This document shows positions 41,865 through 58,654 of a stretch of 58,654 bases of DNA, piece by piece. The stretch's first letter is position 1; each line of letters starts with the position of its first letter. The translations under genes were made by a program, and so were the position numbers. Under the pieces are notes generated by a model. That model did no database searches, was not told where the DNA came from, and was given only the letters and a program-made list of their open reading frames with translations. This DNA is from Spongiactinospora gelatinilytica (GTDB lineage: Bacteria > Actinomycetota > Actinomycetes > Streptosporangiales > Streptosporangiaceae): the NCBI RefSeq assembly GCF_003236385.1, contig NZ_POUA01000003.1:1-58654 (forward strand), read 5' to 3'.

Positions 41865-43760
41865 TCAGACCGTCCGCCACCGCAGCGGCACGGCCGGCCC
41901 CGCCGTGACCAGGTGCCCCGCGTGCGCGGTGAACGTCGTGCTCACCACGCAGGAATCGCTGCGCGAAAGCGTGCGCCACTCGTCCTCGTCGCCGCCCGGC
42001 GGCAGGCGGGTGTGGATCGCACCGCCCGCGTCCATCGCGTACAGGCGGCCGGTCATGCCGCTGAGCGCGACCGCGTCCGCCGAGGGGCCGATGTCCGCCC
42101 AGGCGCCGCTCGGCGCGTCGGCGAACGCCAGGCAGTACAGCCGTCCCGCCGTGGTCGCCGTGTAGAAGCGGCCGTCGGCGATGGCCAGGGCGACGGTGCC
42201 GGCCGGGGCGCGGCACACGTCGGTCCAGCCGCCGGGGCCCGCGGGCAGCGGCCGGTGGCGCAGCACTCCGCTCGGCGTCACGCCGTACAGGCCGATGCCC
42301 AGGCCGGCCGCGGCCTCCCGGGGCACGTCCAGGCAGCGCACCCCGCCCGCGTCGGCGATCGGCCGCCACGGCAGGTTCTGCCCGCACAGTTCGCGGACGT
42401 GCAGGATGCCGCCCGCGCCCACCCCGAACAGCGACCTGCCGTACCCGGCCAGGGCCACCATGTCGGCCGCCGGGCCGATGACCTCCCACTCGGCGGTGCC
42501 GGCCGGAGCCGACAGCCGGTCGATCACGTTGCGGGTGATCCGGTCCACCACCGGGTCGTCCAGCGCGTTGCCCCAGTTGATCGTGGCGGCGTTGAAGACC
42601 GTGCCGCGCCCGCTGGTGAACACGCCCATGGTGGCCGCGCCACCCTGGCCGTAGGCGCTCCAGTGCCGCAGGTCGGCCGTGGCCAGCACCACGAACGAGG
42701 ACGGCGTGCCGTCCCTGGCGGTCACCCGGGGCACGCCCATGACCTCGGTGTACTCCGCGGCGTCGGTCTCATATCCGAGCGTGCCCTGCCCGAACGGGTC
42801 GCCGTCGGCCAGCCCGGTCCCCTCGAACACCCAGTGCTCGGCGAACCTGACCGTGTAGGACTCCTTGAGGATCAGCGGCATGTACGGCCCCCAGGCCCCC
42901 GCGCCCTGCCGGAAGCTGACACCGGTCAGCGTGTTCTCCGGCCGGTTGACCGGGGCGGCCGACCACTCGGTGGTGATGAGCCGGGGATCGGGGGAGGGGT
43001 CGGTCATCGGGTCGCGGTGGCACACCATGGTGCGCCGGTCGTCCTCCAGCCGGATCTGCCACCAGCAGGTGTTCCCGGCGAAGAACGCGATGTTGCCGCC
43101 CCGCCGGACGAACTCCTCGGCCGCGTCCCGCATGCCCGCCGACCAGTACTCGTCGTGCCCGCTGACGATCAGCAGCCGGTAGCCGTTCAGCAGGTCCAGT
43201 CCGTCGTGCAGGTCCAGGTTGGAGCAGAGGTCCACGGTGTAGCCGGACGGGCGCAGCCAGCGCAGCATGCCCTCCTCCCAGCGTTCGGGCGGCGGCCCGC
43301 CGCCCGGCCGGTCGAAGGTGACCCGGGAGGCCCGGGTGGGCTCCTCGGTCCAGTAGATGCTCTGGCCCGGCTCGCCCGCCCGGTTGTAGGCCTGCCAGGT
43401 GGTGAACGGCACCGACAGCAGTACCGGTGAGCGCGGCACGGCCGGCCGGAGTACGAAGTAGACCTCGTTGGGCGGCGAGGCCGCCGTGCCGGGCAGTTCC
43501 TGCTCCCTGGGCCACGGCAGGTCGGCGTCGGCCTGGCCGGGGGCCAGGAAACGGGCCCGGTACAGCGAGCTGTGCCAGTCCGCGGGGATCGTGAGGGTCC
43601 ACTCGGGGCCGTCCACCCGCGCCGACAGCACCCGCCGGTCATCGGTCGCGTCGGCCACGCTGACCCGTACCGGCAGGTCGGACGGCTCGGCCTGGACGTG
43701 GAAGAGCAGCGATTCGCCGTGCGCACAGGACGTGGCCGCGGCGTACGCGGTCACCGTCAT
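41865..43760 (-). CDS. N,N-dimethylformamidase beta-subunit-like protein with C-terminal beta-propeller
   Basis: 631 aa, no signal peptide. Residues 1 to about 410 match the dimethylformamidase large-subunit-like family: LLIVSGHDEYWSAGMRDA, NIAFFAGNTCWWQIRLEDD and TSGRGTVFNAATINWGNAL. The last 220 residues contain four to five tectonin-like repeats with the pattern W..IG..A..VAL.....LY.....G.L, suggesting a small propeller. ATG 43760 overlaps the stop of the C-domain gene (ATGA), so it is the last gene of the NRPS minus-strand operon. Possible roles are C-N hydrolysis in tailoring or self-protection; this is inferred from family and place only. Confidence 0.8.
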   Translation of the reverse strand: MTVTAYAAATSCAHGESLLFHVQAEPSDLPVRVSVADATDDRRVLSARVDGPEWTLTIPADWHSSLYRARFLAPGQADADLPWPREQELPGTAASPPNEVYFVLRPAVPRSPVLLSVPFTTWQAYNRAGEPGQSIYWTEEPTRASRVTFDRPGGGPPPERWEEGMLRWLRPSGYTVDLCSNLDLHDGLDLLNGYRLLIVSGHDEYWSAGMRDAAEEFVRRGGNIAFFAGNTCWWQIRLEDDRRTMVCHRDPMTDPSPDPRLITTEWSAAPVNRPENTLTGVSFRQGAGAWGPYMPLILKESYTVRFAEHWVFEGTGLADGDPFGQGTLGYETDAAEYTEVMGVPRVTARDGTPSSFVVLATADLRHWSAYGQGGAATMGVFTSGRGTVFNAATINWGNALDDPVVDRITRNVIDRLSAPAGTAEWEVIGPAADMVALAGYGRSLFGVGAGGILHVRELCGQNLPWRPIADAGGVRCLDVPREAAAGLGIGLYGVTPSGVLRHRPLPAGPGGWTDVCRAPAGTVALAIADGRFYTATTAGRLYCLAFADAPSGAWADIGPSADAVALSGMTGRLYAMDAGGAIHTRLPPGGDEDEWRTLSRSDSCVVSTTFTAHAGHLVTAGPAVPLRWRTV

Positions 43761-45091
43761 CCGGCGTGGACCTTCCGCGCCGCGGCCCGTGCGGCCGCCT
43801 CCACCAGCAGGTCCTCCAGCCCGCGCAGCCAGGACTCCATCCCGGCTTTGGGCAGGTAGCGGGTGTCGGCGGTCACCGAGATGCCGAGCCCCGCGCCCTC
43901 GCCGGTGATGTGCACACAGAACCGGCAGTTCAGCCGATCCTGGCTGATCGGCCAGGTGAGCGTGGAGGAGCCGAGCGCGGCGTGGATCTCGCCGGGCTCC
44001 CAGTCGCGCGGCGGCGGCTCGGCGAAGCGCATGTCGTTGAAGCAGCAGTACGGCTGGACCTCGGCGCCCCTGGCGGCGCTCGCCCGCGCGGTCGCCGCCG
44101 CCCGGCCCGCCGGGTCGTGGTAGGCGTGCCGGTAGGCGCGCAGCGCGGCGGGCCTGGCCGCCCGCAGCAGGTCATCGAACCGCTCGGCGGTGACGTCGCA
44201 GACGAACAGGCCCTCCTGGGACAGTGTGGTCACCGCGTTCCTGGTGTCGGCGCGGAACCGGTTGCCCACGATCGGCAGCATCGCGCACAGCTCCTGGCCG
44301 GTGACCCTGCCGACCATGGCGGCGCTCGCCGCGAGCAGTACCGCTCCGGTCGTCGCGCCGTGCAGCACGGCGAGCCGCTGCGCGGCCATGGCGGCGGCCC
44401 GCGAGGTCAGCAGCGCCCGCCAGATCGGCGGCCCGGAAGGTTCGGCGACCTGGGCCGGGAACATCGAGACGGGGATGCGAGAGAACTCCCGCTCCCAGTA
44501 CTCGTCGGCGGCCCGCGCCAGGCGCAGGCCCTCCGCGGAGTTCTGCCGGCGGGCCAGTTCGGCCGGCTGGGTGGGTGGCGGGCCGCCCGCCGTGCCGCGC
44601 AGCAGCAGCAGCAGACGAAGGTCGCGTACCGCGATCTCGGCCCCGAGGCCGTCGGCCGCCATGTGACAGAAGACCAGCACGACATGGCCGACCGTGCCCT
44701 CGCAGATCACCACGCCGACCCGCAGCGGGCGCTCGTCGCGGTAGTCGAAGGCCGATGACTCCATCCGGGCCTGCAACTCGGCGGCGACGGCCGCCTCCTC
44801 CCCGCGCGCCGCGTGGACGATCCCCACCACCGGCTCCGCGCTCTCGCCGACGATCTGCACCGGGCCGGGGCCGATGGTGGTGCGCAGCGCCTGGTGCCGG
44901 TCGGTCAGCAGGCCGACGGCCCGGCGGACGTCCGCGACGCCCAGCTGGCGGATCGAGCGGGGCACCGCGAGCACCCGGCCGAAGTTGAAGTAGCGGTCGT
45001 CGGGCGCGGTGCGTTCGATCGCCGCCCAGATCGCCCGCTGCCCCCAGGTGAGCGGCTCAGTGAGCGGCCCGGTGAGCGGCTCGCCGGTCAC
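43757..45091 (-). CDS. Stand-alone condensation-like domain with altered active site
   Basis: 444 aa, a single NRPS condensation domain. The N-terminal core is LTWGQRAIW. The catalytic HHxxxDG reads CHMAADG: the second (catalytic) His and the DG remain, the first His is Cys. The GTG start shares GTGA with the free PCP stop. It may condense, cyclise or transfer an acyl chain on the adjacent free PCP; an inactive platform role is also possible. Confidence 0.8.
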   Translation of the reverse strand: MTGEPLTGPLTEPLTWGQRAIWAAIERTAPDDRYFNFGRVLAVPRSIRQLGVADVRRAVGLLTDRHQALRTTIGPGPVQIVGESAEPVVGIVHAARGEEAAVAAELQARMESSAFDYRDERPLRVGVVICEGTVGHVVLVFCHMAADGLGAEIAVRDLRLLLLLRGTAGGPPPTQPAELARRQNSAEGLRLARAADEYWEREFSRIPVSMFPAQVAEPSGPPIWRALLTSRAAAMAAQRLAVLHGATTGAVLLAASAAMVGRVTGQELCAMLPIVGNRFRADTRNAVTTLSQEGLFVCDVTAERFDDLLRAARPAALRAYRHAYHDPAGRAAATARASAARGAEVQPYCCFNDMRFAEPPPRDWEPGEIHAALGSSTLTWPISQDRLNCRFCVHITGEGAGLGISVTADTRYLPKAGMESWLRGLEDLLVEAAARAAARKVHAG

Positions 45092-45372
45092 CGGGCCCGC
45101 CCGGTGATGTGGGCGGTGAGCAGGTCCAGGTCCTCGAGCGCGGCCAGCGACTCGTCGGAGAAGTCCACGTCCACGCCGAATTCGCGCTCGATGGCGTCGA
45201 TCAGCCGCATCTGCGCCAGCGAGGTGACGCCGAGCGCCGACAGCGGCAACTCGGTGGCCAGCGCCTCCGCCGCGGAGACCTCGCCGTCGCTGGCCGTGGC
45301 CACCAGTTCGGCCAGTCGTTCCTTCGTCTCGCGCGCGGCGCCCGCCGGGGCACGCCTCCCCACTGTGCTCAC
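45088..45372 (-). CDS. Stand-alone peptidyl/acyl carrier protein
   Basis: 94 aa. The phosphopantetheine attachment Ser is in LSALGVTSLAQMRLIDAIE, and an acidic helix II/III follows (FGVDVDFSDESLAAL). GVTSL is closer to acyl-carrier style than to the GGHSL of the NRPS modules nearby. GTG 45372 begins 1 nt after the MbtH stop. There is no cognate A domain in the gene, so it must be loaded in trans, for example by the AMP-ligase or the dehydrogenase complex. Confidence 0.85.
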   Translation of the reverse strand: MSTVGRRAPAGAARETKERLAELVATASDGEVSAAEALATELPLSALGVTSLAQMRLIDAIEREFGVDVDFSDESLAALEDLDLLTAHITGRAR

Positions 45373-45373
45373 G

Positions 45374-45541
45374 TCATGGCTCCCTGTGTGGTCGCATGTC
45401 GGTCCAGGTCCGCTCGATGTGGTCCAGGCACGCCTGCCGGTCGCCGGTGACGCCGGTGGGGTCCCATCCGGCGGGGGGCTCCCGATCGGCGGGCCAGATC
45501 GAGTACTGCTTCTCGTGGTTGACCACCACCAGATGGGTCAT
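45374..45541 (-). CDS. MbtH-like protein
   Basis: 55 aa. It begins MTHLVVVNHEKQYSIWP and has the family hallmarks WPADREPPAGW, a single Cys in QACLDHIE, and the C-terminal WTDMRP. MbtH proteins bind and activate adenylation domains. ATG 45541 lies 3 nt after the NRPS stop and the gene ends 1 nt before the PCP start, so it is an integral operon member. Its A-domain partner is most likely the adjacent C-A-PCP protein. Confidence 0.95.
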   Translation of the reverse strand: MTHLVVVNHEKQYSIWPADREPPAGWDPTGVTGDRQACLDHIERTWTDMRPHREP

Positions 45542-45544
45542 CGC

Positions 45545-48500
45545 TCAGTCCCGCTCCTTCGCAAGGCGCGCGGCCTCCTCGTCGGTCAGTCGGTCGATCT
45601 CGGCCGTCAGCAGGTCCGTGACGGCCTGGGCGAGGTCCGCGACGGCGCCGGCGGCGAAGATCGTGCGGATCGGCACCTCGACCTCGGTCAGCGCCCGGAT
45701 GCCCGCGATCACCCGGGTGGCCAGCAGCGAGTGGCCGCCGAGCGCGAAGAAGTCGTCGTGCGCGCCGACCTTCTCCAGGCCGAGGACCTCGGCGTACACG
45801 TCGGCGACCAGCTCTTCGGCGTCGGTGCGCGGCGGCACGTAGGCGGTGCTCTCGGGCACCGGGCGGGCGTCGCCGGGCAGCGCGGCGCGGTCCACCTTGC
45901 CGTTCGGGGTCAGTGGCAGCGCCTCGGCCCGCACGAACGCGCCCGGCACCATGTACGGCGGCAGCGTGGCCGCCGCGTGCGTTCGCAACTCCGCCACCGG
46001 GGCGTCGCCGACGACGAACGCCACCAGCGTCTCCTCCTGGACCACCACGACCGACTGCCGAACGCCGGGGTGGGCGTCCAGCACGGCCTCGATCTCGCCG
46101 GGCTCGATCCGGTGGCCGCGCAGTTTGACCTGGTGGTCGGTACGGCCGAGGCAGTCCAGGGTGCCGTCGGCGCGGCGGCGGGCCAGGTCGCCGGTGCGGT
46201 ACAGGCGGGCGCCCGGCGGGCCGTACGGGTCGGGGACGAACCGGTCGGCGGTCAGCCCGGGGCGGCGCAGGTAGCCGTCCGCCACGCCCGCCCCGCCGAT
46301 CAGCAGCTCACCGGGGACACCGATGGGGGCCGGCCGGCCGTGCCGGTCCACGACGTGGCAGGTGGTGTTGGCGATCGGCCGGCCGATGGCGACGTCGCCG
46401 GGCGCGTCCGGCACCTGCCAGGCGGTGGACCAGATCGTGGTCTCGGTCGGGCCGTACATGTTGAACAGCCGCCGCGCGTTCGGCCGCAGTTCGGCGGCCA
46501 GCGCGGGCGGCAGCGGCTCGCCGCCGGCCAGGGCCGTGTCCACGCGCAGGCCCGGCAGCATCCGCCAGCCGGACGGTGTGGCCTGTACGTGCGTGACGCC
46601 GTGCCGGGCCGCGAGCGCGGCCACGGCATCGCCGTCGCGGGCGTCGATCCCGCCCGCCATGACCACCCTGCCGCCGGTGACCAGCGGGAGGAACAGTTCC
46701 AGTGCGGAGATGTCGAAGGACAGCGAGGTCAGCGCGAGCCAGGTGTCGCCGGGGCCGCCGTCCAGCAGCGTCCGCATGGCGAGCAGGAAGTTGGTCAGCG
46801 CCCGGTGCGGCACGACGACGCCCTTGGGCCGCCCGGTGGACCCGGAGGTGTAGATCACGTAGGCGGGGTCCTCCGGGCGCGCGCCGAGGGTCTCGCACGT
46901 GGCGCCGGGCACGGCGAGCCGCCGTACGTCCTCGTCGGTGAGCACTCGGGCGACCTGCGCGTCCTCCAGCAGGTACGCCACGCGGGTCGCCGGATAGTCC
47001 GGATCGACCGGCAGGTACGCCGCCCCGCTCATCGCCACGCCGAGCAGCGCCACCGGCGTCTCCGGCCCGCGTCCCGTGATGATCGCCACGAGGTCGCCGC
47101 GGCCGATGCCGTCCTCGGCCAGCCTGGCGGCGAGGCCCGCCGCCCGCGCGGCGAGTTCGGCGTAGGTCAGCTCGCCCTCGTCGTGGACGACGGCCACGGC
47201 GTCCGGCGTGGCGGCGGCGTGGTTCAGCATCAGCCCGACGACCGTGACCGGCGGCAGGTCGGCGGCGGTGTCGTTGCACGCGCCGAGCAGCAGGTCGCGT
47301 TCGGCGCGGGGGAGCAGCGGGAGCGTGGAGACCGGCCGCCGAGGATCCTCCGCGACGGCTTCCAGCAGCACCAGGTAGCGAGCGGTCATCCGCTCGACGG
47401 TGCCCTGGTCGAACAGGTCCGTGCTGAAGATGGCGTGGCCGGTCAGGGCTCCGTCGTCGCGGGGATAGAGGTCCATCGACAGGTCGAACCTGGCCGGGTG
47501 CCAGCCGTGCGGGACCGGCGCCGCGGTCAGGCCGGGCAGCGGGTCCCCGGTGTCGCCGTGGGTGTGGACCGCGAACATGGTCTGGAACAGCGGTGTCCTG
47601 CTCAGGTCGCGGTCCAGGCCGAGCGCGCCGACCAGTCGTTCAAAGGGCACCTCACGGTGCGCGAGCGCGGCCAGGACGCCTCTCCGTGTCCTGGCCAGCA
47701 GCTCGGCGAACACCGGATCGCCCGACAGGTCGGCGCGCAGCGCGAGGGTGGTGGAGAACATCCCGATCAGGTTCTCCACCTCGGGGCGGTCCCGCCCGGC
47801 CGCCGGGGTGCCGACGCAGAAGTCGTCCTGCCCGCTGTGACGGGCCAGCAGCACCTGGTAGGCGGCCAGCAGCACCATGTACGGCGTGCAGCGCTCCCGC
47901 CTGGCCAGCCGGTTGACCGCGGCGGACAGGCCGGGCGGAATCTCGAAGATCACCTCTCCGCCCGAAGGGGTCCGGACGGCGGGCCGGGGGCGGTCGGCGG
48001 GCAGGTCCAGCGAAGGCGTGCCGGCCAGCCGTCCGGCCCACCAGGAGACGTCGGTGTCCTGCTCCCGCTCGGCCCGCACGTGGTCGGCGTAGCGCAGCGG
48101 CAGTTCCTCCAGCGTGCCGCCGGCGTACAGCTCGGCCACCTCGCGGCGCAGCACGTTGATGGACCAGCCGTCGGCGTTGATGTGGTGCAGCACCACGCAG
48201 AGGACGTGGTCGTCGGCGGCCAGGCGGATCAGCGTGACCCGCAGCGGTGGCCGCGCGGCCAGGTCGAAGGCGGTGTTGGTGCGGTCGGCGACGATGGCCA
48301 GCGCGGCGCGTACGCCGTCCGCGTCCACCCGCTCGATCTCCACGAGGGCGGGCGGCTCGATGACCGCCGTGGGCCTGCCGTCCTCCGCCTCGGGGTAGCG
48401 GGTGCGCAGTGGCTCATGCCGGGCCACGACCTCGGTGAACGCGGCCTGGAGCCGGGTGGTGTCGAGCCCGCCACGCAGCCGGTAGGCGTAGTGCGTCGTG

Positions 48501-48577
48501 TAGGAGGGGTCCTGCGGGTCGAGGCGGTGCAGGAACCACAGTCTCTCCTGGCCGAACGACAGCGGGCCGCTAGTCAC
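45545..48577 (-). CDS. Nonribosomal peptide synthetase, C-A-PCP
   Basis: 1,010 aa single module. C domain at about 1-430 with intact HHINADG at 131-137. A domain at about 450-860 with YTSGSTGRPKG, NMYGPTE and the NGKVDR lysine. PCP near 935-1,005 with DDFFALGGHSLLA. No thioesterase. Aligning by eye to GrsA, the ten-residue code reads D-I-L-Q-A-A-M-I-W-K, closest to the glycine-type code DILQLGLIWK. The C domain at the start means it extends an acyl or peptidyl chain. GTG 48577 has GGGAG 8 nt upstream. First gene of the minus arm; operator-like site E lies just upstream. Confidence 0.94.
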   Translation of the reverse strand: MTSGPLSFGQERLWFLHRLDPQDPSYTTHYAYRLRGGLDTTRLQAAFTEVVARHEPLRTRYPEAEDGRPTAVIEPPALVEIERVDADGVRAALAIVADRTNTAFDLAARPPLRVTLIRLAADDHVLCVVLHHINADGWSINVLRREVAELYAGGTLEELPLRYADHVRAEREQDTDVSWWAGRLAGTPSLDLPADRPRPAVRTPSGGEVIFEIPPGLSAAVNRLARRERCTPYMVLLAAYQVLLARHSGQDDFCVGTPAAGRDRPEVENLIGMFSTTLALRADLSGDPVFAELLARTRRGVLAALAHREVPFERLVGALGLDRDLSRTPLFQTMFAVHTHGDTGDPLPGLTAAPVPHGWHPARFDLSMDLYPRDDGALTGHAIFSTDLFDQGTVERMTARYLVLLEAVAEDPRRPVSTLPLLPRAERDLLLGACNDTAADLPPVTVVGLMLNHAAATPDAVAVVHDEGELTYAELAARAAGLAARLAEDGIGRGDLVAIITGRGPETPVALLGVAMSGAAYLPVDPDYPATRVAYLLEDAQVARVLTDEDVRRLAVPGATCETLGARPEDPAYVIYTSGSTGRPKGVVVPHRALTNFLLAMRTLLDGGPGDTWLALTSLSFDISALELFLPLVTGGRVVMAGGIDARDGDAVAALAARHGVTHVQATPSGWRMLPGLRVDTALAGGEPLPPALAAELRPNARRLFNMYGPTETTIWSTAWQVPDAPGDVAIGRPIANTTCHVVDRHGRPAPIGVPGELLIGGAGVADGYLRRPGLTADRFVPDPYGPPGARLYRTGDLARRRADGTLDCLGRTDHQVKLRGHRIEPGEIEAVLDAHPGVRQSVVVVQEETLVAFVVGDAPVAELRTHAAATLPPYMVPGAFVRAEALPLTPNGKVDRAALPGDARPVPESTAYVPPRTDAEELVADVYAEVLGLEKVGAHDDFFALGGHSLLATRVIAGIRALTEVEVPIRTIFAAGAVADLAQAVTDLLTAEIDRLTDEEAARLAKERD

Positions 48578-48839: not shown

Positions 48840-50276
48840 ATGAGTGCGATCTCCAACCTCACCATTCCCGACCTTCTCCATGCCCGCGCTCAGGCCGACC
48901 CCGAGCGGGAGGCGCTGATCGTCCACGGAGGCGGCAGCGGCGCGTTCGGCGCCCGCCCGGGCTCGCTCACCTTCGCCGAATGGGACCGCGGCGCCGCCGA
49001 GGTGGCCCGCGGCCTGGCCGGCCGCGGCGTCGGCCGCGGCGACCGCGTCGGACTGGTCTTCGGAAACGGCGACTGGATCGACTACGCGGTGGCCTTCTGC
49101 GGGGTGACCGCCGCCGGGGCAGTGGCCGTACCGCTGTCGGACCGGCTGGCCGAAGCCGAGATCGACGCGGCGCTCGCGCACTGCGGCGCGGCGACCGTGC
49201 TGCGGCCCGGCGACCTGCCGCTCGGCGGCGGCGCCGAGCCGAAGGCCGCGCGTCCCGGCGACGTCGCGCAGATCCTGCTGACCTCCGGCACCACCGGCCG
49301 GCCCAAGGGCGTGGCCGCCACGCACGCCAACCTCACCTTCGGCCACGGCGGGCGCAGGCGGCCGTTCGCCCACTCCGCCCACCTCGCGCACGCCTTCCCG
49401 ATCGGCACCAACGCCGGGCAGACCATGCTGGTCACCGCCCTGTCCGCGCACCCGGCCACGGTCACCCTGCCCCGCTTCACGCCGGGGAGATTCGCGGCAC
49501 TGATCGAGGAGTACCACGCGGGCACGGTGTTCCTCGTGCCCGCCATGGCGGTCGAACTGCTCGCCGCGGGTGTGCAGGACCGCCACGACCTGTCGTGCGT
49601 GCGCCTGCTCGGCTCGGCCGCCGCGCCGCTGCCCGCCCCGGTCGCCGAACGGCTGTGCACCGCCTTCCCGCGCGCCGCCATCGTCAACTACTACACCTCG
49701 ACCGAGTCCTACCCGGCCCAGACGATCATGATGTACGACCCCGATCGCCCCGGCAGCGTCGGCCAGGCCGTCGGCGGCGGCACCGTCAAGATCGCCACCG
49801 CGGCCGGGGAGCCGGTGCCCGCCGGCGTGACCGGCGAGGTGTGGCTGCGCTCGCCGGCCGCCCCGCGCGCCTACTGGGCCGACGAGCGGGGCAGTCGCGA
49901 GGTGTTCCGCGACGGCTGGGTGCGGATGGGCGACCTCGGGCGGCTCGACGAGGAGGGCTACCTCTACCTGGTGGACCGCGAGAGCGATGTGATCAAGTCG
50001 GGCGCGTTCAAGGTCTCCACCCTGCACGTGGAGGAGACCGCGCACGAGTGCCCCGGGGTCCGCGAGGCCGCCGCGTTCGGCGTGCCGCACCCCACGCTCG
50101 GCATGTCCGTCGCGCTCGCCCTCGTCGGCTCGGTGACCCCACAGGAACTGCGGCTCTTCCTCGCCGACCGGCTCGCCCCGCATGAACGTCCCGCCCGGGT
50201 CGTCCTGATGGACGCCCTCCCCAGAAACCACGCGGGCAAGGTGGACAAGCGCCTCCTGCGAGAAGGAGCACGATGA
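48840..50276 (+). CDS. AMP-dependent acyl/aryl ligase (stand-alone adenylation enzyme)
   Basis: 478 aa ANL-family enzyme. Core motifs are ILLTSGTTGRPKGVAATHANL, the adenine motif NYYTSTESYPAQ, the hinge WVRMGDLGRLDEEGYLYLVDR and the catalytic Lys in NHAGKVDK. The pocket does not give an amino-acid code; a fatty, aryl or other carboxylate is more likely. ATG 48840 has GGGGG upstream; the frame is open to 48696 but that stretch holds the operator. The stop overlaps the C-PCP start (ATGA), suggesting it loads the PCP of the next protein or the free PCP. Confidence 0.88.
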   Translation: MSAISNLTIPDLLHARAQADPEREALIVHGGGSGAFGARPGSLTFAEWDRGAAEVARGLAGRGVGRGDRVGLVFGNGDWIDYAVAFCGVTAAGAVAVPLSDRLAEAEIDAALAHCGAATVLRPGDLPLGGGAEPKAARPGDVAQILLTSGTTGRPKGVAATHANLTFGHGGRRRPFAHSAHLAHAFPIGTNAGQTMLVTALSAHPATVTLPRFTPGRFAALIEEYHAGTVFLVPAMAVELLAAGVQDRHDLSCVRLLGSAAAPLPAPVAERLCTAFPRAAIVNYYTSTESYPAQTIMMYDPDRPGSVGQAVGGGTVKIATAAGEPVPAGVTGEVWLRSPAAPRAYWADERGSREVFRDGWVRMGDLGRLDEEGYLYLVDRESDVIKSGAFKVSTLHVEETAHECPGVREAAAFGVPHPTLGMSVALALVGSVTPQELRLFLADRLAPHERPARVVLMDALPRNHAGKVDKRLLREGAR

Positions 50277-51748
50277 TCGGCACGACGACCGTGGACGCGG
50301 TCCAGCACGGCATGTGGATCAACGAACGGCTGGGCGCGGGCTCGGCCTACCACGTGCCCGTGGTGGTCAGGCTGCGCGGCCCGCTCGACCGGGGCGCGCT
50401 GATCAGGGCGTGCGCGGCCGTGCTGGAACGGCACCCGGTGCTGTCCGGGCGCGTCGAGGAGGACGACGGCGTGCCGTACCTGCGGAGCGGCGACGCCCCC
50501 GTGGAGGTCGCCCACATCGCCGCCGAGGGCGAGGCGCTGAGCGAGATCCTGCGCCGGGAGGTGGTGCGGCCGTTCGACCTCGCGGCGGGGCCGCTGGTCC
50601 GCTTCACCATGGTCGGCGAGTCACCGCTGCGGCACCTGCTGCTCGTCGTGGCCCACCACCTCGTCTTCGACGGCAGGTCCAAGGATCTGCTGGTCGCCGA
50701 GCTGGCCGCGGCCTACGGCGGCGCCCGGCCGCCGGTGTTTCCGGTGCCCGAGGTGTCGGGCTCGGACGCCGAGCCCGCCCCCGGCTTCTGGGACACGCGC
50801 TGGCGCGAACCGGGCCCGGTCGCGCTGCCCGGCGTGCCGGGGCGCTCCCGGGGCACCGCCCCGGGCCGTACCGTCGCCTTCGAGACCGACACCGATTTCG
50901 CGATCCCCGGGCTGACCAGGTTCGAGGTCCTCACCGCCGCCCTGCACGCGCTGCTGCGTTCCTACGGCAACCAGGACGTCGTCACCGCGATCGACCTGAG
51001 CACCCGCCGCCCCGGCGACGCCGCGGTGATCGGGTCGTTCGTCAACGAGTTGCCGCTGTTCAGCCGCCCCGAGGCGGGCATGCCGTTCGCGGACTTCGCC
51101 GCCGGGCTGCGCGCCGAACTCCGTGCGCTCTACGCCCACCGGCACCTCCCGCTCGCCCGCGCGGTGCCCGGCCTGCGCCCGCACGCGGCGCTCGCGCCGG
51201 TCTCGATCAGCTACCGCAGGCGCGAGGAGCCCGAACCGGACTTCGCCGGGCTCGACGCGTCGGTCGAATGGCTGGCCGCCAACCACGCGGTCAGGGGATC
51301 GCTCCAACTGCAGTTCCTGGACACCGCGGGCGGCCTGACCGGCTCGCTGCGGTACGACCCCGAGGAGGTCCCCGATGCGGGGACGGTCGCCGGGGACCTG
51401 GTGGCGCTGCTGGACCGGGTGGCCGCCGCCCCGGACGCGCCGCTGTCCAAGCTGCTGGACATCCGCGCCGCGCACGTGGCCGAAGCCGTTTCCGCCGCTC
51501 CGGTGACCGAAGCGCCCGCCGAGGTGGACGACCCGCTCGTGGGCGAGGTCGCCGGGATCTGGGAGGAGGTCCTGGGCATCTCGCCGATCGGTCCGCACGA
51601 CGACATCTTCGACCTGGGCGCGCACTCGCTGACCATCACCCAGATCATCGCCAGAATGCGCAAGCGGCTGAAGCTGGAGGTGCCGCTGGACGCCTTCTTC
51701 GAGACGCCGACCATCGCCGGGGTGCTCCAGGCGGTCCGCAATGACTGA
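50273..51748 (+). CDS. NRPS condensation-PCP didomain protein
   Basis: 491 aa. The C domain with AHHLVFDG (HHxxxDG intact) occupies about 1-400. The PCP with DDIFDLGAHSLTITQI occupies about 415-490. No A domain, so its carrier must be loaded in trans. Overlaps the AMP-ligase gene by 4 bp and the E1alpha gene by 8 bp. The coupling to both neighbours makes the ligase or the dehydrogenase complex its likely loading partner. Confidence 0.9.
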   Translation: MIGTTTVDAVQHGMWINERLGAGSAYHVPVVVRLRGPLDRGALIRACAAVLERHPVLSGRVEEDDGVPYLRSGDAPVEVAHIAAEGEALSEILRREVVRPFDLAAGPLVRFTMVGESPLRHLLLVVAHHLVFDGRSKDLLVAELAAAYGGARPPVFPVPEVSGSDAEPAPGFWDTRWREPGPVALPGVPGRSRGTAPGRTVAFETDTDFAIPGLTRFEVLTAALHALLRSYGNQDVVTAIDLSTRRPGDAAVIGSFVNELPLFSRPEAGMPFADFAAGLRAELRALYAHRHLPLARAVPGLRPHAALAPVSISYRRREEPEPDFAGLDASVEWLAANHAVRGSLQLQFLDTAGGLTGSLRYDPEEVPDAGTVAGDLVALLDRVAAAPDAPLSKLLDIRAAHVAEAVSAAPVTEAPAEVDDPLVGEVAGIWEEVLGISPIGPHDDIFDLGAHSLTITQIIARMRKRLKLEVPLDAFFETPTIAGVLQAVRND

Positions 51749-52679
51749 CCTGCTCGACCGGCCGCCGGGCGGCCTGCCGTACCCCGGCGGCGACGGCGAC
51801 GACCTCGAACTGATGCTGATGATCCGGGCGTTCGAGTACAAGCTGCTCGACCTGTTCGCCGCCGGGATGCTCAACGGCACCACGCACACCTGCCTCGGGC
51901 AGGAGCACGTGCCGGTCGCGCTGTCCCCGCTGATGGACCCGCGCGACCACGTCTTCAGCAACCACCGGGGCCACGGCCACTACCTGGCCAGGTACCGCGA
52001 CCCGCACGGCCTGCTCGCCGAGATCATGGGCCGGGAGGGCGCGGTCTGCGGGGGAGTGGGCGGCAGCCAGCACATCCACCGCGACCGGTACATGTCCACC
52101 GGCGTGCAGGGGGAGAGCCTGCCGGTCGCGGCTGGCGTCGCGCTGCACCTCTCGCGCGCCGAGCCGGGCGCCGCGGCCTGGGCCTACATCGGCGACGGCA
52201 CGTTCGGCGAGGGCGCGGTCTACGAGGCGCTGAACATCGCGGCGCTGTGGCGGCTGCCGGTCGTGGTCGTGGTGGAGAACAACGGCATCGCCCAGTCCAC
52301 GCCCACGAGCGCGCACCTGGCCGGGACGATCGCCGGGCGGGCCGCCGCCTTCGGCGTTCCGCACCTCGCGATCGGCTCCACCGACCCCGCGGAGATCCGC
52401 GACATCGTCGCCGGACCGCTGGGGCACGTACGGGCCGGGCGCGGGCCGCTGGTGCTGGAGTTCCGCACCCATCGGCTCGGCCCGCACAGCAAGGGCGACG
52501 ACACACGCGATGAACAGGCGCTGCGCGAGGCCCGCGCGGGCGACTGGTACCACCGTTACGCCGCGGCCGACCCCGCCGGGCTGGCCAGGGTGGAGTCCGA
52601 GCAGCGCGCGTACGTGGCGGCGGTGGCCGACGAGGTCGCCGCCCGCCCGCCGTCCACCGGGCGGGCCGCGTGCGGGTAG
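51741..52679 (+). CDS. 2-oxoacid dehydrogenase E1 component, alpha subunit
   Basis: 312 aa thiamine-diphosphate enzyme. The TPP/Mg motif runs from IGDGTFGEG to VVENN (GDG-x-NN), with RGHGHYLAR upstream. Together with E1beta it decarboxylates a 2-oxoacid and transfers the acyl group to lipoyl-E2. The ATG is within the end of the C-PCP gene. It resembles PDH/acetoin-dehydrogenase E1alpha in length. The substrate cannot be read from the sequence. Confidence 0.93.
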   Translation: MTDLLDRPPGGLPYPGGDGDDLELMLMIRAFEYKLLDLFAAGMLNGTTHTCLGQEHVPVALSPLMDPRDHVFSNHRGHGHYLARYRDPHGLLAEIMGREGAVCGGVGGSQHIHRDRYMSTGVQGESLPVAAGVALHLSRAEPGAAAWAYIGDGTFGEGAVYEALNIAALWRLPVVVVVENNGIAQSTPTSAHLAGTIAGRAAAFGVPHLAIGSTDPAEIRDIVAGPLGHVRAGRGPLVLEFRTHRLGPHSKGDDTRDEQALREARAGDWYHRYAAADPAGLARVESEQRAYVAAVADEVAARPPSTGRAACG

Positions 52680-53653
52680 CCGACAACCTCAACGCGGCGC
52701 TGCACGACCTGCTCGACCGCGACCCCCGGGCCTACCTGCTCGGAGAGGACATCACCGACCAGTACGGCGGCGCCTTCAAGATCTCCCGTGGCCTGTCCGA
52801 GCGCTTCCCCGGCCGGGTGCTGTCCACCCCGATCAGCGAGGGCGCGCTCACCGGCATGGCCGCCGGGCTCGCCCTGGCCGGGGACACCGCCATCGCCGAG
52901 ATCATGTTCGGCGACTTCGTCACCCTCGCCTTCGACCAGCTCGTCAACTTCGCCGCCAAGTCGGTGACCATGTACGGCAAGCGGCTGCCGCTGCGCATGG
53001 TCGTGCGCTGCCCCAGCGGCGGCGGGCGCGGATACGGCCCCACGCACAGCCAGAGCCCGCAAAAACACCTGCTCGGCGTGCCCGGCCTGGCGATCTACGA
53101 GGTCTCGCCGTTCCATGACAACCACGCCGTGTTCGGCGCGATGCTGGACCGCGGCGAACCCTGCGTGCTGTTCGAGGACAAGGTCCTCTACACCCGCCCG
53201 ATGTACCCGGCGGCCGAGCCGTTCCGGCTGACCCCGCCCGAGACCCCGGACGGCTTCGCGCGCGTCGCCCTTCCCGGCGGCGACCCCGACTGCGTGATCA
53301 TCGCCACCGGCGGCACCGCCCACAAGGCGCTCGCCGCGATGCGCGCGCTGCTGCTGGAGGACGAGATCACCGCCGCCCTCCTGGTGCCGTCGCGCCTGTA
53401 TCCCTTCGACTTCCCCGCGGCGATCGGCGCGGCGAACACCGTGTTCGTGGTCGAGGAGAGCACGGCGGGCGGCACGTGGGGCGCGGAGGTCGCGCACGTA
53501 CTGCACGGCCGCATGTGGGACCGCCTGGCCCGGCCCGTGCAACTGGTCCACTCCGCGGACTCCATCATTCCCACCGCCGCCCACCTCGAAGAACGCGTGC
53601 TGGTCAGCGAATCGTCGATCCACCGAGCCATCAGAAAGGCCCTCCGTGGCTGA
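52670..53653 (+). CDS. 2-oxoacid dehydrogenase E1 component, beta subunit
   Basis: 327 aa. The N-terminal pyrimidine-binding region is YLLGEDITDQYGGAFKISRGL, with FPGRVLSTPISEGALTGMAAGLA and RCPSGGGRGYGPTHSQS, and a transketolase C-terminal domain (VFVVEESTAGGTWGAEVA). GTG 52670 overlaps the alpha gene by 10 bp, and the end overlaps E2 by 8 bp. No E3 (dihydrolipoyl dehydrogenase) gene is present in the window; a housekeeping E3 could serve. Confidence 0.93.
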   Translation: MRVADNLNAALHDLLDRDPRAYLLGEDITDQYGGAFKISRGLSERFPGRVLSTPISEGALTGMAAGLALAGDTAIAEIMFGDFVTLAFDQLVNFAAKSVTMYGKRLPLRMVVRCPSGGGRGYGPTHSQSPQKHLLGVPGLAIYEVSPFHDNHAVFGAMLDRGEPCVLFEDKVLYTRPMYPAAEPFRLTPPETPDGFARVALPGGDPDCVIIATGGTAHKALAAMRALLLEDEITAALLVPSRLYPFDFPAAIGAANTVFVVEESTAGGTWGAEVAHVLHGRMWDRLARPVQLVHSADSIIPTAAHLEERVLVSESSIHRAIRKALRG

Positions 53654-54740
53654 CATCCGCGTCCCCAAGCTGAACAACAACGACGCCGAGTACCTCCTGG
53701 TCGAATGGCTCGTCGAGGACGGCGCGCCGATCCGCTCCGGCGACCCCATGGTGATCGTGGAGACCTCCAAGGCGGCCGAGGAGCTGACCGCCGAGGAGTC
53801 CGGCCACCTGCACCACGGCGTGCCGGCGGGCACGTGGTGCCGGCCCGCCCAGTCCATCGCGCACATCACCGCCTCGGCCGCCGCTCCGGCGCGGCGGGAG
53901 CCGGCCGCGGTACCCGGGCCCGCCGTACCCGAGGCGGACGGCCCGCTCATCACCGAACCGGCGCGGGCCCTGATGAACGAAATGGGCATCACCGAGGACG
54001 CGGTCCGCGCGCTCGGCGTCGCGGTCGTGCGGCGGACCGACGTCGAACGGCTCGCCGTGCCCCCCGCCCGGCCCGCCGACACCCTTGGCCCGGCGGGCGG
54101 GAAGCGCCGCCCGCTGTCGCGTGTGCAGCGGGCGGTCGGCCGCGCCGTCGAGACCTCGCACCAGACCATCCCCGCCGCCTACACCGCCGTGCGGATGGAC
54201 CTCGGGCCGCTGCTGGCCCGCGCCACCCGCCTGACCAGGGAGACCCGCCGGCCGGTGGGCCTCGCCGAGCTGTTCGTGATGGCGGTCGCCGAGACCTACG
54301 CCGACCACCCGATGTTCTTCGCCACCCTCACCCCGGACGGCACCGCCGCCGACATCCCCGACGCGCCGCACATCGGCGTCACCGTGGACGCGGGGGAGGG
54401 CCTGTACGTTCCGGTGGTCCACGACGCCGCCAGGATGGGCGTCAAGGAGCTGGCCACGCTGCTGATGAAGTACCGGGTGGCCGCCGCGGGCGGCGAGTTC
54501 ACCGAGCGGGAGCTGAGCGGCGCCGGCATGGTGATCACCCTGCACACCGAGCCCGACGTCGTGCTCGCCATCCCCTACGTGCTGCCCGGCACGGCCTGCG
54601 CGCTCGCGGTCACCCCGCCCTCGGACGGCACCCGCGCGACCATCGGCATCGCCTACGACCACCGGCTGATCAACGGCCGGGACGCCGCGCTCTACATGGG
54701 CCGCCTCAAGCAGATCATCGAGACTCCGGAGACCGCGTGA
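53646..54740 (+). CDS. 2-oxoacid dehydrogenase E2 component (dihydrolipoyl acyltransferase)
   Basis: 364 aa. One lipoyl domain at 1-75 with the attachment Lys42 in ETSKAAEEL, then an Ala/Pro linker, a peripheral-subunit-binding domain (ITEPARALMNEMGITEDAV) and an acyltransferase domain. The active-site signature reads DHRLING: the catalytic His is kept but the Asp of the usual DHRxxDG is Asn. The stop overlaps the start of the terminal NRPS gene (GTGA), placing acyl-thioester chemistry directly within the peptide operon. Confidence 0.9.
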   Translation: MADIRVPKLNNNDAEYLLVEWLVEDGAPIRSGDPMVIVETSKAAEELTAEESGHLHHGVPAGTWCRPAQSIAHITASAAAPARREPAAVPGPAVPEADGPLITEPARALMNEMGITEDAVRALGVAVVRRTDVERLAVPPARPADTLGPAGGKRRPLSRVQRAVGRAVETSHQTIPAAYTAVRMDLGPLLARATRLTRETRRPVGLAELFVMAVAETYADHPMFFATLTPDGTAADIPDAPHIGVTVDAGEGLYVPVVHDAARMGVKELATLLMKYRVAAAGGEFTERELSGAGMVITLHTEPDVVLAIPYVLPGTACALAVTPPSDGTRATIGIAYDHRLINGRDAALYMGRLKQIIETPETA

Positions 54741-57700
54741 CCACCCTCTCGCCGGACAAGAAGGCCCTGCTCGCGCAGCGGCTGCGGCGGCGTACCCGGG
54801 CGCGGGTCATCACCCCCCGCGACCCTGACACGCAGCCGCCGCTGACGCCCGCCCAGGAGCGGCTGTGGTTCCTGGAGCAGTACCGGCCGGGTACCACCGC
54901 CTACACGATCCCGCTGGTCGTGCGCGTACAGGGCGAGCTGACCGGCCCCCGCGTCGCGGCCGCCCTGGCCGGGGTCGCCGCCCGGCACGAGGCGCTGCGG
55001 ATGCGCTTTCCCACCGACGGCGAGGGGCGGCCCCGCGTCGTGATCGACCCCGAGCCCCGGGTCGAGCTGACCGTCTTGGAGCTCCCCGGCGAGGACGCGG
55101 CCCGCGCGGCGGGCACGGCGCTGCTCGCCCGCACCTTCGGCCTGGAGTCCGGGCCGCTGTGGCGGGCGGCGCTGGTGACGATCGCGCCCGGCGACCACCT
55201 GCTGGTGCTGGCCGTCCACCACCTGGTGGCGGACGGCTGGTCGGCGGACCTGATCCTTCGCGAGGTGCTGACGCTGTGCGGCGGGGACGCCGAGCCGGAG
55301 CCGCCGGGGGCGCAGTACGGCGACTACGCGCTGTGGGAACGCGGCAGGGACCACGACGGCGAACTGACCTACTGGCGCGAACGGCTGGCCGGGCTGCCCG
55401 CCCTGGACCTGCCCACCGACCTGCCGCGGCCCGCCGAGCAGAGCAGCGCCGGGGCCGGGCACGAGTTCCACATCGACGCCGCGCTGACCGGGCGGATCGC
55501 CGCCCTCGCCGCCGAGTGCGGGGCCACGCCGTACATGGTGCTGCTGGCCGCGTTGCAGGTGCTGCTGGCCAGGCACAGCGGGCAGGCCGACTTCGCGGTC
55601 GGCTCGCCGGTCGCCGGGCGTGACGTGCCCGAACTCGACGGCGCGGTCGGCATGTTCGTCAACACCCTGGTGCTGCGCGCCGACCTGGCCGGCGACCCGT
55701 CGTTCCGCGACCTGCTGGCGCGCACCAGGGAGACCGCGCTGGACGCCTACGCCCACCAGGCCCTGCCCTTCGATCGGCTGGTCGGCGACCTGAACGTGGC
55801 CCGCGACGTGAGCCGCACGCCGCTGTTCCAGGTGATGTTCGCGCTGCAGAACTACGGGGCCGCCGCCGCGGCGCCGGTCGGCGGATACTCCGTGACCGGG
55901 GTGACGCTGCCGCCCGCCGCGTCCCGTTTCGACCTGTCGTTCTACCTGCACGAGACGCCGGACGGCCTGAGCGGTTACGTCATCTACAACAGCGACCTGT
56001 TCCTGCCCGGCACGATCGAGCGGATGGCCGCGCGCTACGCCAGGCTGCTGCGGTCCATCGCCGACGCGCCGCAGACCCCGCTCTCCCGGCTGGACCTGCT
56101 CACCGCCGAGGAACGGGCGGCGCTCGACCGCTTCAGCCTGCCCGCGGAACCGCTCCCCGAGCCCGCCGGGTCACTGCCGGAACTGATCGCCGCGCAGGCC
56201 GCCGCCACCCCGGACACCACCGCGATCGTCTGCGGCGGGGAGAGCCTGACCTACGCCGAACTCGACCTGCGGACCGGGCGGCTCGCCGCCCACCTGCGCG
56301 CCGCGGGCGTCGGTCCCGACGTGCGGGTGGGCGTCTGCCTGGACCAGTCCGCAGACCTCGCCGTCGCCGTGCTGGGCGTACTTCGGGCGGGCGGCGCGTA
56401 CATCCCGATCGACCCCGCCTATCCGCGCGACCGGATCGGCTACATGCTCCAGGACGCCGACGCCCGGGCCGTGATCACCGTCCCCGAGCACACGGACCTC
56501 CTCACCGGCCAGGTGATCCTGATCGGCGACGTCCCCGCCGACCTCGATCCGCTCCCCGTGCGGAGCGCGTCGCCGGAGGACCTGGCGTACGTGATCTACA
56601 CCTCCGGGACCACCGGGCGGCCCAAGGGCGTCGGCATCCAGCACCGCCAGGTGGTCAACTACCTGGCGGGCGTACGGCAGCGGCTCGGCGTGCCCGAGGG
56701 CGCGGACTTCACTCTGGCGCAGTCGCTGTCGTTCGACTTCGGCGTGACGATCTTCTACCTGGCCCTGCTCACCGGCGGCCGGCTGCACCTGGTCTCGCCC
56801 CGCACCCCCGCCGTCGAACTGGCCGAACGCTTCAGCCGCACCGACTACCTGAAGATCACCCCGTCCCACCTGGCGTCCCTTCAGGCGGAGGCCCCCGAGG
56901 CGGACCTGCTGCCGCGGCGCACGCTGATCCTCGGCGGCGAGGCGTCGCGCGCCGACTGGGCCGCCGGCCTCACCGCCTCGTGCGGGGTCGTCAACCACTA
57001 CGGGCCCACCGAGGCGACCGTCGGCATCACCACGTACGCCGTCCCGAGTACGCCGGGCGTGGGCGGCATGCTGCCCATCGGCCGCCCGCTGCCCGGGGCC
57101 CGGGTCTACGTACTGGACGAGAACTTCGCGCCCGCCCCCATCGGCGTGCCCGGCGAGGTCTACCTGGGCGGCGACCGGCTGGCCCGCGGCTACCTCGGCC
57201 GCCCCGCACTCACCGCCGAGCGGTTCCTGCCCGACCCGTTCGGCGAGCCCGGCGCGCGGATGTACCGCACCGGCGACATCGGCCGCTGGTCGCCCGAGGG
57301 CGACCTGCACTTCCTCGGCCGCCGCGACCTCCAGGTCAAGGTGCGCGGGTACCGCGTCGAGCTCGCCGAGATCGAGGCCGTGCTCGAAGACCTCCCCGGC
57401 ATCGACCAGGCGGTCGTGGAGGCCCGCGCCGACCGGCTGGTCGCCTACCTGGTCGGGGCCGCGACGAACGTCGGCGACCTGCGCTCCGACCTCGCCGGCA
57501 GACTGCCCGACTACATGGTCCCCGCCCGCTACGTGTGGCTGGACGAACTCCCGCTGAAGTCGCACGGCAAGGTGGACCGCGCCGCGCTGCCCGACCCGGG
57601 CGACGAGCGCCCCGACCAGGAGACCGGCTTCGTGGAGCCGGAGACGCCGCTGGAGGAGGCGGTCGCCGGGATCTGGGCGGGGGTGCTGGGGCTGGCGCGG

Positions 57701-58654
57701 GTCGGCGTCCTGGACGACTTCTTCGACCTCGGCGGGCACTCGCTGCTCGCGGCCCAGCTCGTCACCCGGCTGCGGCACGCCGTACCGCCGGGCGGACGCC
57801 AGCCCACCATCCTGGACGTCTTCAAGCACCCCACCGTGCGGCGGCTGGCCAAGGTCATGGAGGCGGGCGCGGCGGGCGCGTCCGATCGGCTGCTGCACCG
57901 GCTCACCCCCGCCGGACGGCGGGTCGCGGCGACGGCGGTGTGCGTGCCGTACGGCGGCGGCAGCGCGGTCATCTACCAGCCGCTCGCCGACGCCCTGCCG
58001 GACGACTGGGACCTGTACTCCGTCGCGGTCCCCGGCAACGAACTGGGCGAAACCGCCCGGCCCTCGGCCGAGGTCGCCGAACAGTGCGCCACGGAGATCC
58101 TGGAGTCGGTGCGGGGGCCGATCGTGCTGTACGGGCACTGCGGCCTCGGCGTCACCCTCACCGTCGAGGTCGCCCGCAGGCTGGAGGCGGCCGGACGCGA
58201 GGTCGAGGCGGTCTACCTGGGCGGGATCTTCCCGTTCTCCCGCCCGGCCGGTCCGCTGGCACGGCTCGCGACCCGGATGGACCGGCTGCGCAGCGACCGC
58301 TTCTGGGCCAACGCCCTGCGCGCCTCCGGCCTTGACGTGGACGAACTCGCCCCCGACCAGCTCAAGCTGATCATCGAGAACCGCCGCCAGAGCACGCGCG
58401 AGGCCGAGGAGTACTTCGCCCGCCTCTTCCGCGAGGGAATGCCACCGCTGCGTGCCCCGGTCATCTCGGTGGCGGGCGAGCGGGACCCGGCCATGGAGTT
58501 CCACCAGGAGCGCTACCCGGAGTGGCACCTGATCGCCTCCACCGTGGGCCTGGTCGTCCTGGACGAGGCCAACCACTTCTTCCTCAAATACCGAGCGACC
58601 GAGCTGGCCGCCATCCTCACCACCGTCCACCCCTCCCTCCCCACCGGCACCCTC
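54737..58654 (+). CDS. Nonribosomal peptide synthetase, C-A-PCP-TE, 3'-partial
   Basis: At least 1,306 aa; no stop before the window edge. C domain with VHHLVADG near 160, A domain with YTSGTTGRPKG near 620 and NHYGPTE, PCP with DDFFDLGGHSLLA near 1,000, and a thioesterase-like alpha/beta hydrolase from about 1,060. The eye-aligned A-domain code is D-F-T-K-L-L-H-V-G-K, nearest to Asp/Asn-type codes (DLTK...). The TE nucleophile motif is GHCGLG, so Cys1135 replaces the usual Ser; Asp1250 (GERDP) and His1280 (EANHFF) complete the triad. Coupled to E2. Likely the releasing module, unless more domains follow off the edge. Confidence 0.93.
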   Translation, partial: MTTLSPDKKALLAQRLRRRTRARVITPRDPDTQPPLTPAQERLWFLEQYRPGTTAYTIPLVVRVQGELTGPRVAAALAGVAARHEALRMRFPTDGEGRPRVVIDPEPRVELTVLELPGEDAARAAGTALLARTFGLESGPLWRAALVTIAPGDHLLVLAVHHLVADGWSADLILREVLTLCGGDAEPEPPGAQYGDYALWERGRDHDGELTYWRERLAGLPALDLPTDLPRPAEQSSAGAGHEFHIDAALTGRIAALAAECGATPYMVLLAALQVLLARHSGQADFAVGSPVAGRDVPELDGAVGMFVNTLVLRADLAGDPSFRDLLARTRETALDAYAHQALPFDRLVGDLNVARDVSRTPLFQVMFALQNYGAAAAAPVGGYSVTGVTLPPAASRFDLSFYLHETPDGLSGYVIYNSDLFLPGTIERMAARYARLLRSIADAPQTPLSRLDLLTAEERAALDRFSLPAEPLPEPAGSLPELIAAQAAATPDTTAIVCGGESLTYAELDLRTGRLAAHLRAAGVGPDVRVGVCLDQSADLAVAVLGVLRAGGAYIPIDPAYPRDRIGYMLQDADARAVITVPEHTDLLTGQVILIGDVPADLDPLPVRSASPEDLAYVIYTSGTTGRPKGVGIQHRQVVNYLAGVRQRLGVPEGADFTLAQSLSFDFGVTIFYLALLTGGRLHLVSPRTPAVELAERFSRTDYLKITPSHLASLQAEAPEADLLPRRTLILGGEASRADWAAGLTASCGVVNHYGPTEATVGITTYAVPSTPGVGGMLPIGRPLPGARVYVLDENFAPAPIGVPGEVYLGGDRLARGYLGRPALTAERFLPDPFGEPGARMYRTGDIGRWSPEGDLHFLGRRDLQVKVRGYRVELAEIEAVLEDLPGIDQAVVEARADRLVAYLVGAATNVGDLRSDLAGRLPDYMVPARYVWLDELPLKSHGKVDRAALPDPGDERPDQETGFVEPETPLEEAVAGIWAGVLGLARVGVLDDFFDLGGHSLLAAQLVTRLRHAVPPGGRQPTILDVFKHPTVRRLAKVMEAGAAGASDRLLHRLTPAGRRVAATAVCVPYGGGSAVIYQPLADALPDDWDLYSVAVPGNELGETARPSAEVAEQCATEILESVRGPIVLYGHCGLGVTLTVEVARRLEAAGREVEAVYLGGIFPFSRPAGPLARLATRMDRLRSDRFWANALRASGLDVDELAPDQLKLIIENRRQSTREAEEYFARLFREGMPPLRAPVISVAGERDPAMEFHQERYPEWHLIASTVGLVVLDEANHFFLKYRATELAAILTTVHPSLPTGTL

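Follow-up and report, generated by a model that had tools for sequence, protein, structure and literature searches.

Contig NZ_POUA01000003.1 of Spongiactinospora gelatinilytica, taken here as one entire window of 58654 bases from an 8.05 Mb genome in 957 contigs, carries a nonribosomal peptide synthetase (NRPS) cluster in which genes for E1alpha, E1beta and a lipoyl-bearing E2 protein are embedded (Table 1). Open reading frames and Pfam domains agree with the initial annotation in placing this trio between a gene for a condensation domain fused to a peptidyl carrier protein (C-PCP) and a gene with condensation, adenylation, carrier and thioesterase domains (C-A-PCP-TE), and in finding two carriers without an adenylation (A) domain in the cluster, namely the PCP of C-PCP and a free carrier protein. 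A stand-alone AMP-ligase gene, absent from that annotation together with the left arm of the cluster (41865-48577), overlaps C-PCP. The few-base overlaps at all plus-strand junctions from the AMP-ligase through C-A-PCP-TE make translational coupling plausible, as had been claimed.

Table 1. Genes and sites of the cluster, with domains of the window proteins assigned by Pfam
Feature	Position	Strand	Basis or remark
E1alpha: thiamine diphosphate (ThDP)-binding subunit, glycolyl-family type (QncN/NapB/SclQ2-like)	51741-52679	+	Pfam E1_dh 155 bits; motifs
E1beta: SclQ3 / N-terminal QncL-like	52670-53653	+	Pfam Transket_pyr 81 bits, Transketolase_C 45 bits; motifs
E2: SclQ4 / C-terminal QncL-like, 364 residues	53646-54740	+	Pfam Biotin_lipoyl 31.8 bits, 2-oxoacid_dh 100 bits
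Lipoyl-acceptor lysine K42 codon (ETSKA)	53769-53771	+	invariant, 30 sequences
Catalytic histidine H339 codon (DHRxxNG)	54660-54662	+	invariant, 30 sequences
C-PCP protein	50273-51748	+	Pfam Condensation, PP-binding; PCP at 51533-51739
C-A-PCP-TE NRPS	54737-58654	+	Pfam Condensation, AMP-binding, PP-binding, Thioesterase; contig ends inside gene
Stand-alone acyl/aryl-acid AMP-ligase, overlaps C-PCP	48840-50276	+	Pfam; PDB sequence matches
C-A-PCP NRPS	45545-48577	-	Pfam
MbtH-like protein	45374-45541	-	Pfam
Free carrier protein: alternative glycolyl acceptor or acyl carrier	45088-45372	-	Pfam PP-binding; TSL motif
Stand-alone condensation domain	43757-45091	-	Pfam
N,N-dimethylformamidase-like amidohydrolase	41865-43760	-	Pfam; PDB matches

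Beyond close cassettes, the best plasmid matches were a Paenibacillus biosynthetic locus and RenH of the renieramycin pathway. RenH, which comes from a divergent bacterium, joins E1alpha and E1beta in one protein and RenI joins lipoyl and E2 domains, so that this NRPS pathway has the same parts as the window; identity between the window E1alpha and RenH is 46% across most of E1alpha. Close E1alpha relatives were also found in 12/296 Streptomyces genomes, six of which hold loci (L211-L216) with E1alpha, a small acyl carrier protein (ACP) and E1beta. E2 is fused in frame to E1beta in the five of these loci with E2 in the stretch examined, and an intact gene for ketoacyl-ACP synthase III (KAS III) adjoins in five of the six. 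L216 further carries KAS III, a UvrA-like protein and a FAD monooxygenase, the gene content described for the naphthyridinomycin (nap) and dnacin (din) clusters (PMC7570522), and we infer that the six loci are nap-like.

The E1 proteins of these nap-like loci are 57-62% identical to the window E1alpha. In an IQ-TREE phylogeny the cassette E1alpha proteins cluster with nap-like E1 and RenH (100/99), resolution inside this group being weak, and all ten sequences of acetoin dehydrogenase, pyruvate dehydrogenase (PDH) and branched-chain ketoacid dehydrogenase (BCKDH) type fall outside; an earlier E1 tree is in agreement. The E1alpha motifs GT(T/V)HTC(L/I)GQE, SNHR(G/C)HGH, GGSQH and HSKGDDTR, and the E1beta motifs PYGGAFK and RGYGPTHSQ, are common to the window, the nap-like loci, RenH and Paenibacillus, and the outgroup lacks them. 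The window E1alpha has them in the forms GTTHTCLGQE, SNHRGHGH, GGSQH and HSKGDDTR, together with STGVQG, which is common to nap-like E1 and RenH and missing from acetoin dehydrogenase, PDH and BCKDH. Tree and motifs thus separate the window E1 from the 2-oxoacid dehydrogenase complexes (PDH, BCKDH, OGDH), with which it neither groups nor shares active-site motifs, and the tree places E1alpha outside the acetoin dehydrogenase clade. The NapB/NapD and QncN/QncL pairs had been named as precedents at the outset, and the clade shared with nap-like E1 and RenH bears out this choice.

Glycolyl loading has known precedents in the pathways to naphthyridinomycin, quinocarcin and scleric acid. In scleric acid biosynthesis, SclQ1 is an ACP, SclQ2 a QncN-like ThDP protein of 305 aa, SclQ3 resembles the N-terminal part of QncL (338 aa) and SclQ4 is a lipoyl/acyltransferase protein resembling its C-terminal part (386 aa); SclQ1-4 are proposed to convert a ketose phosphate into a glycolyl unit on the ACP, deletion of sclQ1-4 reduces scleric acid to a residual level, and feeding of glycolic acid restores it (PMC6335953; PMC13307308). 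In the case of dnacin, NapB/NapD homologues are described as transferring hydroxyethyl from xylulose 5-phosphate onto an ACP (PMC7570522). Like the window trio, the SclQ1-4 system of Streptomyces sclerotialus belongs to an NRPS cluster and divides the ThDP-binding, pyrimidine-binding/transketolase-C and lipoyl-acyltransferase functions among separate proteins, which are similar in size to those of the window; where the window has C-PCP and the AMP-ligase, it employs SclQ1, an ACP that stands alone, and an ATP-grasp ligase. NapB/C/D, QncN/M/L and DinU/DinT/DinS of dnacin share with the window a homologous E1, lipoyl and acyltransferase domains and a dedicated carrier; there, E1beta and E2 are fused and KAS III lies alongside, whereas in the window the two are separate and no KAS III was detected. 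These likenesses were drawn from published descriptions and from the nap-like loci. The novelty initially ascribed to a complete E1alpha/E1beta/E2 set that includes a lipoyl domain does not hold, since SclQ2-4 are the same split set and QncL contains lipoyl and acyltransferase domains (PMC6335953); the E1beta-lipoyl-E2 fusions of the nap-like loci carry both of these domains as well.

The module is widespread. An E2 relative (E <= 1e-30) is present in 66/201 sampled genomes of the family, about a third. A scan of one genome per species, with a pattern containing the N of DHRxxN, returned 225 relatives, and the best 80, which were examined, come mainly from Streptosporangiaceae and more rarely from Streptomyces, Actinacidiphila, Streptacidiphilus, Dactylosporangium, Hamadaea and Actinomadura, the nearest named relative being Spongiactinospora rosea (E2 96% identical). 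In 40/40 of the 20-kb regions around E2 matches, the three genes E1alpha, E1beta and E2 are grouped and have NRPS-type genes as neighbours, and most of 80 further loci also adjoin NRPS genes, a few being polyketide synthase (PKS) clusters. When these best 80 of the species scan were scored together with four plasmid loci, E1beta and E2 were found in all 84, E1alpha in 83, C-PCP in 62 and the AMP-ligase in 61, usually in the order AMP-ligase, C-PCP, E1alpha, E1beta, E2. As the trio is kept together in nearly all related loci, its association is not due to chance, and the initial proposal that the NRPS cluster contains its own dedicated acyl supplier is supported. When the literature was searched for known products of clusters with such a gene order, only scleric acid and the tetrahydroisoquinolines were returned, and the cluster family carrying the module here appears to be large and unstudied.

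The PKS clusters include those of Streptomyces noursei (L141), Streptantibioticus cattleyicolor (L162) and Actinomadura spongiicola (L136), whose arrangement KAS III - ACP - E1alpha - E1beta - E2 suggests a glycolyl starter for polyketides. Plasmid p-YT9A of Paenibacillus polymyxa (L160) places a divergent E1alpha/E1beta/E2 set and two ACPs in a PKS/thioester-reductase cluster, a case of the module outside Actinomycetota. On a plasmid of Streptomyces sp. NBC_01136 (L161), the order MbtH - ACP - E1alpha - E1beta - E2 adjoins hybrid NRPS/PKS genes and represents a stand-alone-ACP version of the cassette. The 11.85 Mb Nonomuraea gerenzanensis record NZ_LT559118.1, filed as a plasmid, is probably a chromosome.

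Taken with the clade of E1, the conserved NRPS context makes it very probable that the three genes constitute a glycolyl-supply module of the NapB/NapD, QncN/QncL and SclQ2-4 kind, in which the acyl group is likely glycolyl derived from a ketose phosphate. E1alpha and E1beta, with ThDP, would take a two-carbon (di)hydroxyethyl unit from the ketose phosphate, or from a comparable donor, for instance hydroxypyruvate, and reductively acylate the lipoyl arm of E2, whose core would then place glycolyl onto the phosphopantetheine of a carrier, for which the PCP of C-PCP directly upstream of E1alpha is the favoured candidate. The coupled AMP-ligase would activate an acid, the condensation domain of C-PCP would attach this acid to the hydroxyl of the glycolyl group, and two NRPS modules would extend the chain. 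A housekeeping E3 would probably reoxidise the dihydrolipoyl arm; the Pfam-identified cluster genes include none for E3, and contig C110 has, close to the gene of a housekeeping E2, one for a flavin oxidoreductase belonging to the E3 superfamily. An O-acylated glycolyl unit has a parallel in scleric acid, where it bears benzoate and is amide-linked to an amino acid (PMC6335953).

Several points weigh against this picture. The signature motifs correlate with the donor and are not proven to determine it, and donor specificity could have drifted. The loci are related, and counts over them are consequently not independent. In some loci, L064 and L070 among them, E1alpha is the first gene of a separate operon and C-PCP lies elsewhere. 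Finally, by hidden Markov model (HMM), neither window carrier clearly resembles the NapC-like ACPs, the free carrier scoring 9.8 bits and the fused PCPs of relatives less than 10 bits.

The acceptor is where a second version of the glycolyl module has to be weighed. The PCP of C-PCP ends 2 bases upstream of the E1alpha start and, unlike NapC, QncM and SclQ1, is fused to a condensation domain. Across 124 loci, some of them duplicates, a carrier lies directly upstream of E1alpha in 83, counting carrier domains that end within 300 bases upstream on the same strand; it is a stand-alone ACP next to KAS III in PKS-type loci and the PCP of C-PCP in the relatives of the window. In a carrier tree, 46/52 such fused PCPs fall in one clade (support 0.84). 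Moreover, KAS III genes occur in 0/54 loci scored with C-PCP against 12/41 of the others (Fisher p ~1e-5, relatedness ignored), a distribution which favours the view that C-PCP stands in for ACP plus KAS III. As a condensation domain is usually attached to the carrier next to E1alpha and the KAS III of other loci is absent, direct glycolyl loading of the fused PCP followed by O-acylation is suggested. We put forward, tentatively, that lipoyl-E2 may transfer glycolyl straight onto the fused PCP without a free ACP or KAS III, that the condensation domain may form an O-acyl-glycolyl ester with the AMP-ligase acid, and that the relatives may represent a widespread, unstudied family of acyl-glycolyl peptides. 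Somewhat less probable, though the strongest of the alternatives, is that glycolyl is received by the free carrier while the PCP of C-PCP is charged by the AMP-ligase: a TSL motif as in NapC-type ACPs is present in the free carrier, and the AMP-ligase adjoins C-PCP even where E1alpha lies elsewhere. However, a condensation domain normally takes its own downstream PCP as acceptor, which would then need a nucleophile, and HMM scores do not separate the two window carriers.

With regard to the donor, the trio had initially been described as a 2-oxoacid dehydrogenase acting on a 2-oxoacid. A true variant of this type would pass an ordinary acyl group (acetyl, propionyl or branched) to the carrier, as proposed for pepteridine, and the overall E1/E2 fold and nearest PDB relatives are indeed PDH-type. 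We regard it as improbable and disfavour the 2-oxoacid donor, because E1 belongs with the glycolyl clade, whose studied members use ketose, rather than with PDH or BCKDH, and because the RGHGH segment of E1alpha is closest to that of acetoin dehydrogenase, which cleaves a hydroxyketone. The acetoin complex itself differs from the window in its separate E1alpha clade, CoA acceptor and catabolic operons. In pepteridine biosynthesis, Plu2796 and its E1 resemble the window in being PDH-like E1/E2 proteins proposed to prime an NRPS carrier directly, but E2 is fused to thiolation (T) and condensation domains there and the proposed donors are 2-oxoacids (giving acetyl and propionyl), a distinction made by description and not by sequence; the window E2 has no such fusion. 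Priming of a carrier by E2 in place of CoA, which had been presented as new, was thus proposed earlier in that E2-T-C system, with older cases cited (PMC5384830).

Slightly less probable still is that E2 acylates CoA only, glycolyl-CoA or the free acid being the true precursor and the adjoining AMP-ligase activating it. E2 retains the CoA-acyltransferase fold and catalytic residues, and scleric acid production can use free glycolic acid (PMC6335953); nevertheless, dedicated carriers stand beside E1alpha throughout the family, and related sets have been assigned ACP loading (PMC6335953; PMC7570522). An AlphaFold2 model of E2 (mean pLDDT 84.7, pTM 0.60, 24 input sequences) predicts a lipoyl domain, a helical segment resembling a peripheral-subunit-binding domain (PSBD) and a core matching E2 acyltransferase cores in the PDB, and has no feature separating CoA from a carrier as acceptor. 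Most housekeeping E2s have D in place of the N of DHRxxNG. The idea that this N marks a changed acceptor was abandoned, since Asn614 of Azotobacter E2p is given as the equivalent catalytic residue in the title of PDB entry 1dpb and since the pattern used for the genome scan already included that N.

A general catabolic complex lying in the cluster by coincidence is rejected as very improbable: its lipoyl domain and PSBD-like segment are complete and could work with an E3, but the best E2 paralogues of the same genome are only ~28% identical over the core, the cluster genes include no identified E3, and relatives are nearly all beside NRPS or PKS genes. NCBIfam PDH models, in addition, score the window proteins far under their cut-offs, and the trio is not a close copy of a general catabolic complex, the finding which the initial annotation had named as one that would refute its proposal.

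Turning to the neighbouring genes, the nearest solved relatives of the AMP-ligase in a PDB sequence search are fatty-acyl and aryl-CoA ligases. The A-domain codes, read by eye, are DILQLGMIWK for C-A-PCP, which we take to be Gly-like, and DFTKIGHVGK for C-A-PCP-TE, presumably Asp/Asn-like. In S. rosea the terminal gene is not followed by a further NRPS gene, and the product is therefore probably small. In relatives, this terminal gene continues in frame past the thioesterase: a conserved TWWL-like motif is followed by a low-complexity linker, which varies, and then by a major facilitator superfamily (MFS) transporter (~450-740 residues in total), an apparent NRPS-TE-exporter fusion seen in L039 (10600-16725), where Pfam MFS_1 confirms it, and in ~60 related loci; the window contig breaks at the corresponding point. 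Related TE-MFS stretches are present on Streptomyces clavuligerus and Embleya megaplasmids, and a literature search yielded no paper describing such a fusion.

In the left arm, the gene of the N,N-dimethylformamidase (DMFase)-beta-like amidohydrolase adjoins the lone condensation domain and the free carrier in many relatives too. Distant PDB relatives of its protein are DMFase and N-acetyl-beta-phenylalanine acylase, and it could serve in trimming or release of an amide. The part of the window at 16099-41834 is non-biosynthetic and contains genes for a DHDPS family protein, RNase J, FtsK, a RodZ-like protein, a radical SAM methylthiotransferase and a CDP-alcohol phosphatidyltransferase, followed by two GH3 hydrolases, a sugar ABC transporter and ROK regulators.

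What is new here is that about a third of the sampled genomes of the family hold a relative of the module, that the carrier adjoining E1alpha usually forms one protein with a condensation domain, and that the KAS III of other loci is absent; the acceptor carrier is possibly presented in a new way. The prediction of the building block is corrected from a 2-oxoacid-derived acyl group to a likely glycolyl group from a ketose, which decides the product to look for. A two-carbon supply route held to be rare proves to be common; its genes mostly recur in a single arrangement, for which the literature searched gave no product. If the fused PCP is the acceptor, these bacteria would possess a simpler way of putting glycolyl on an NRPS than the route through ACP and KAS III.

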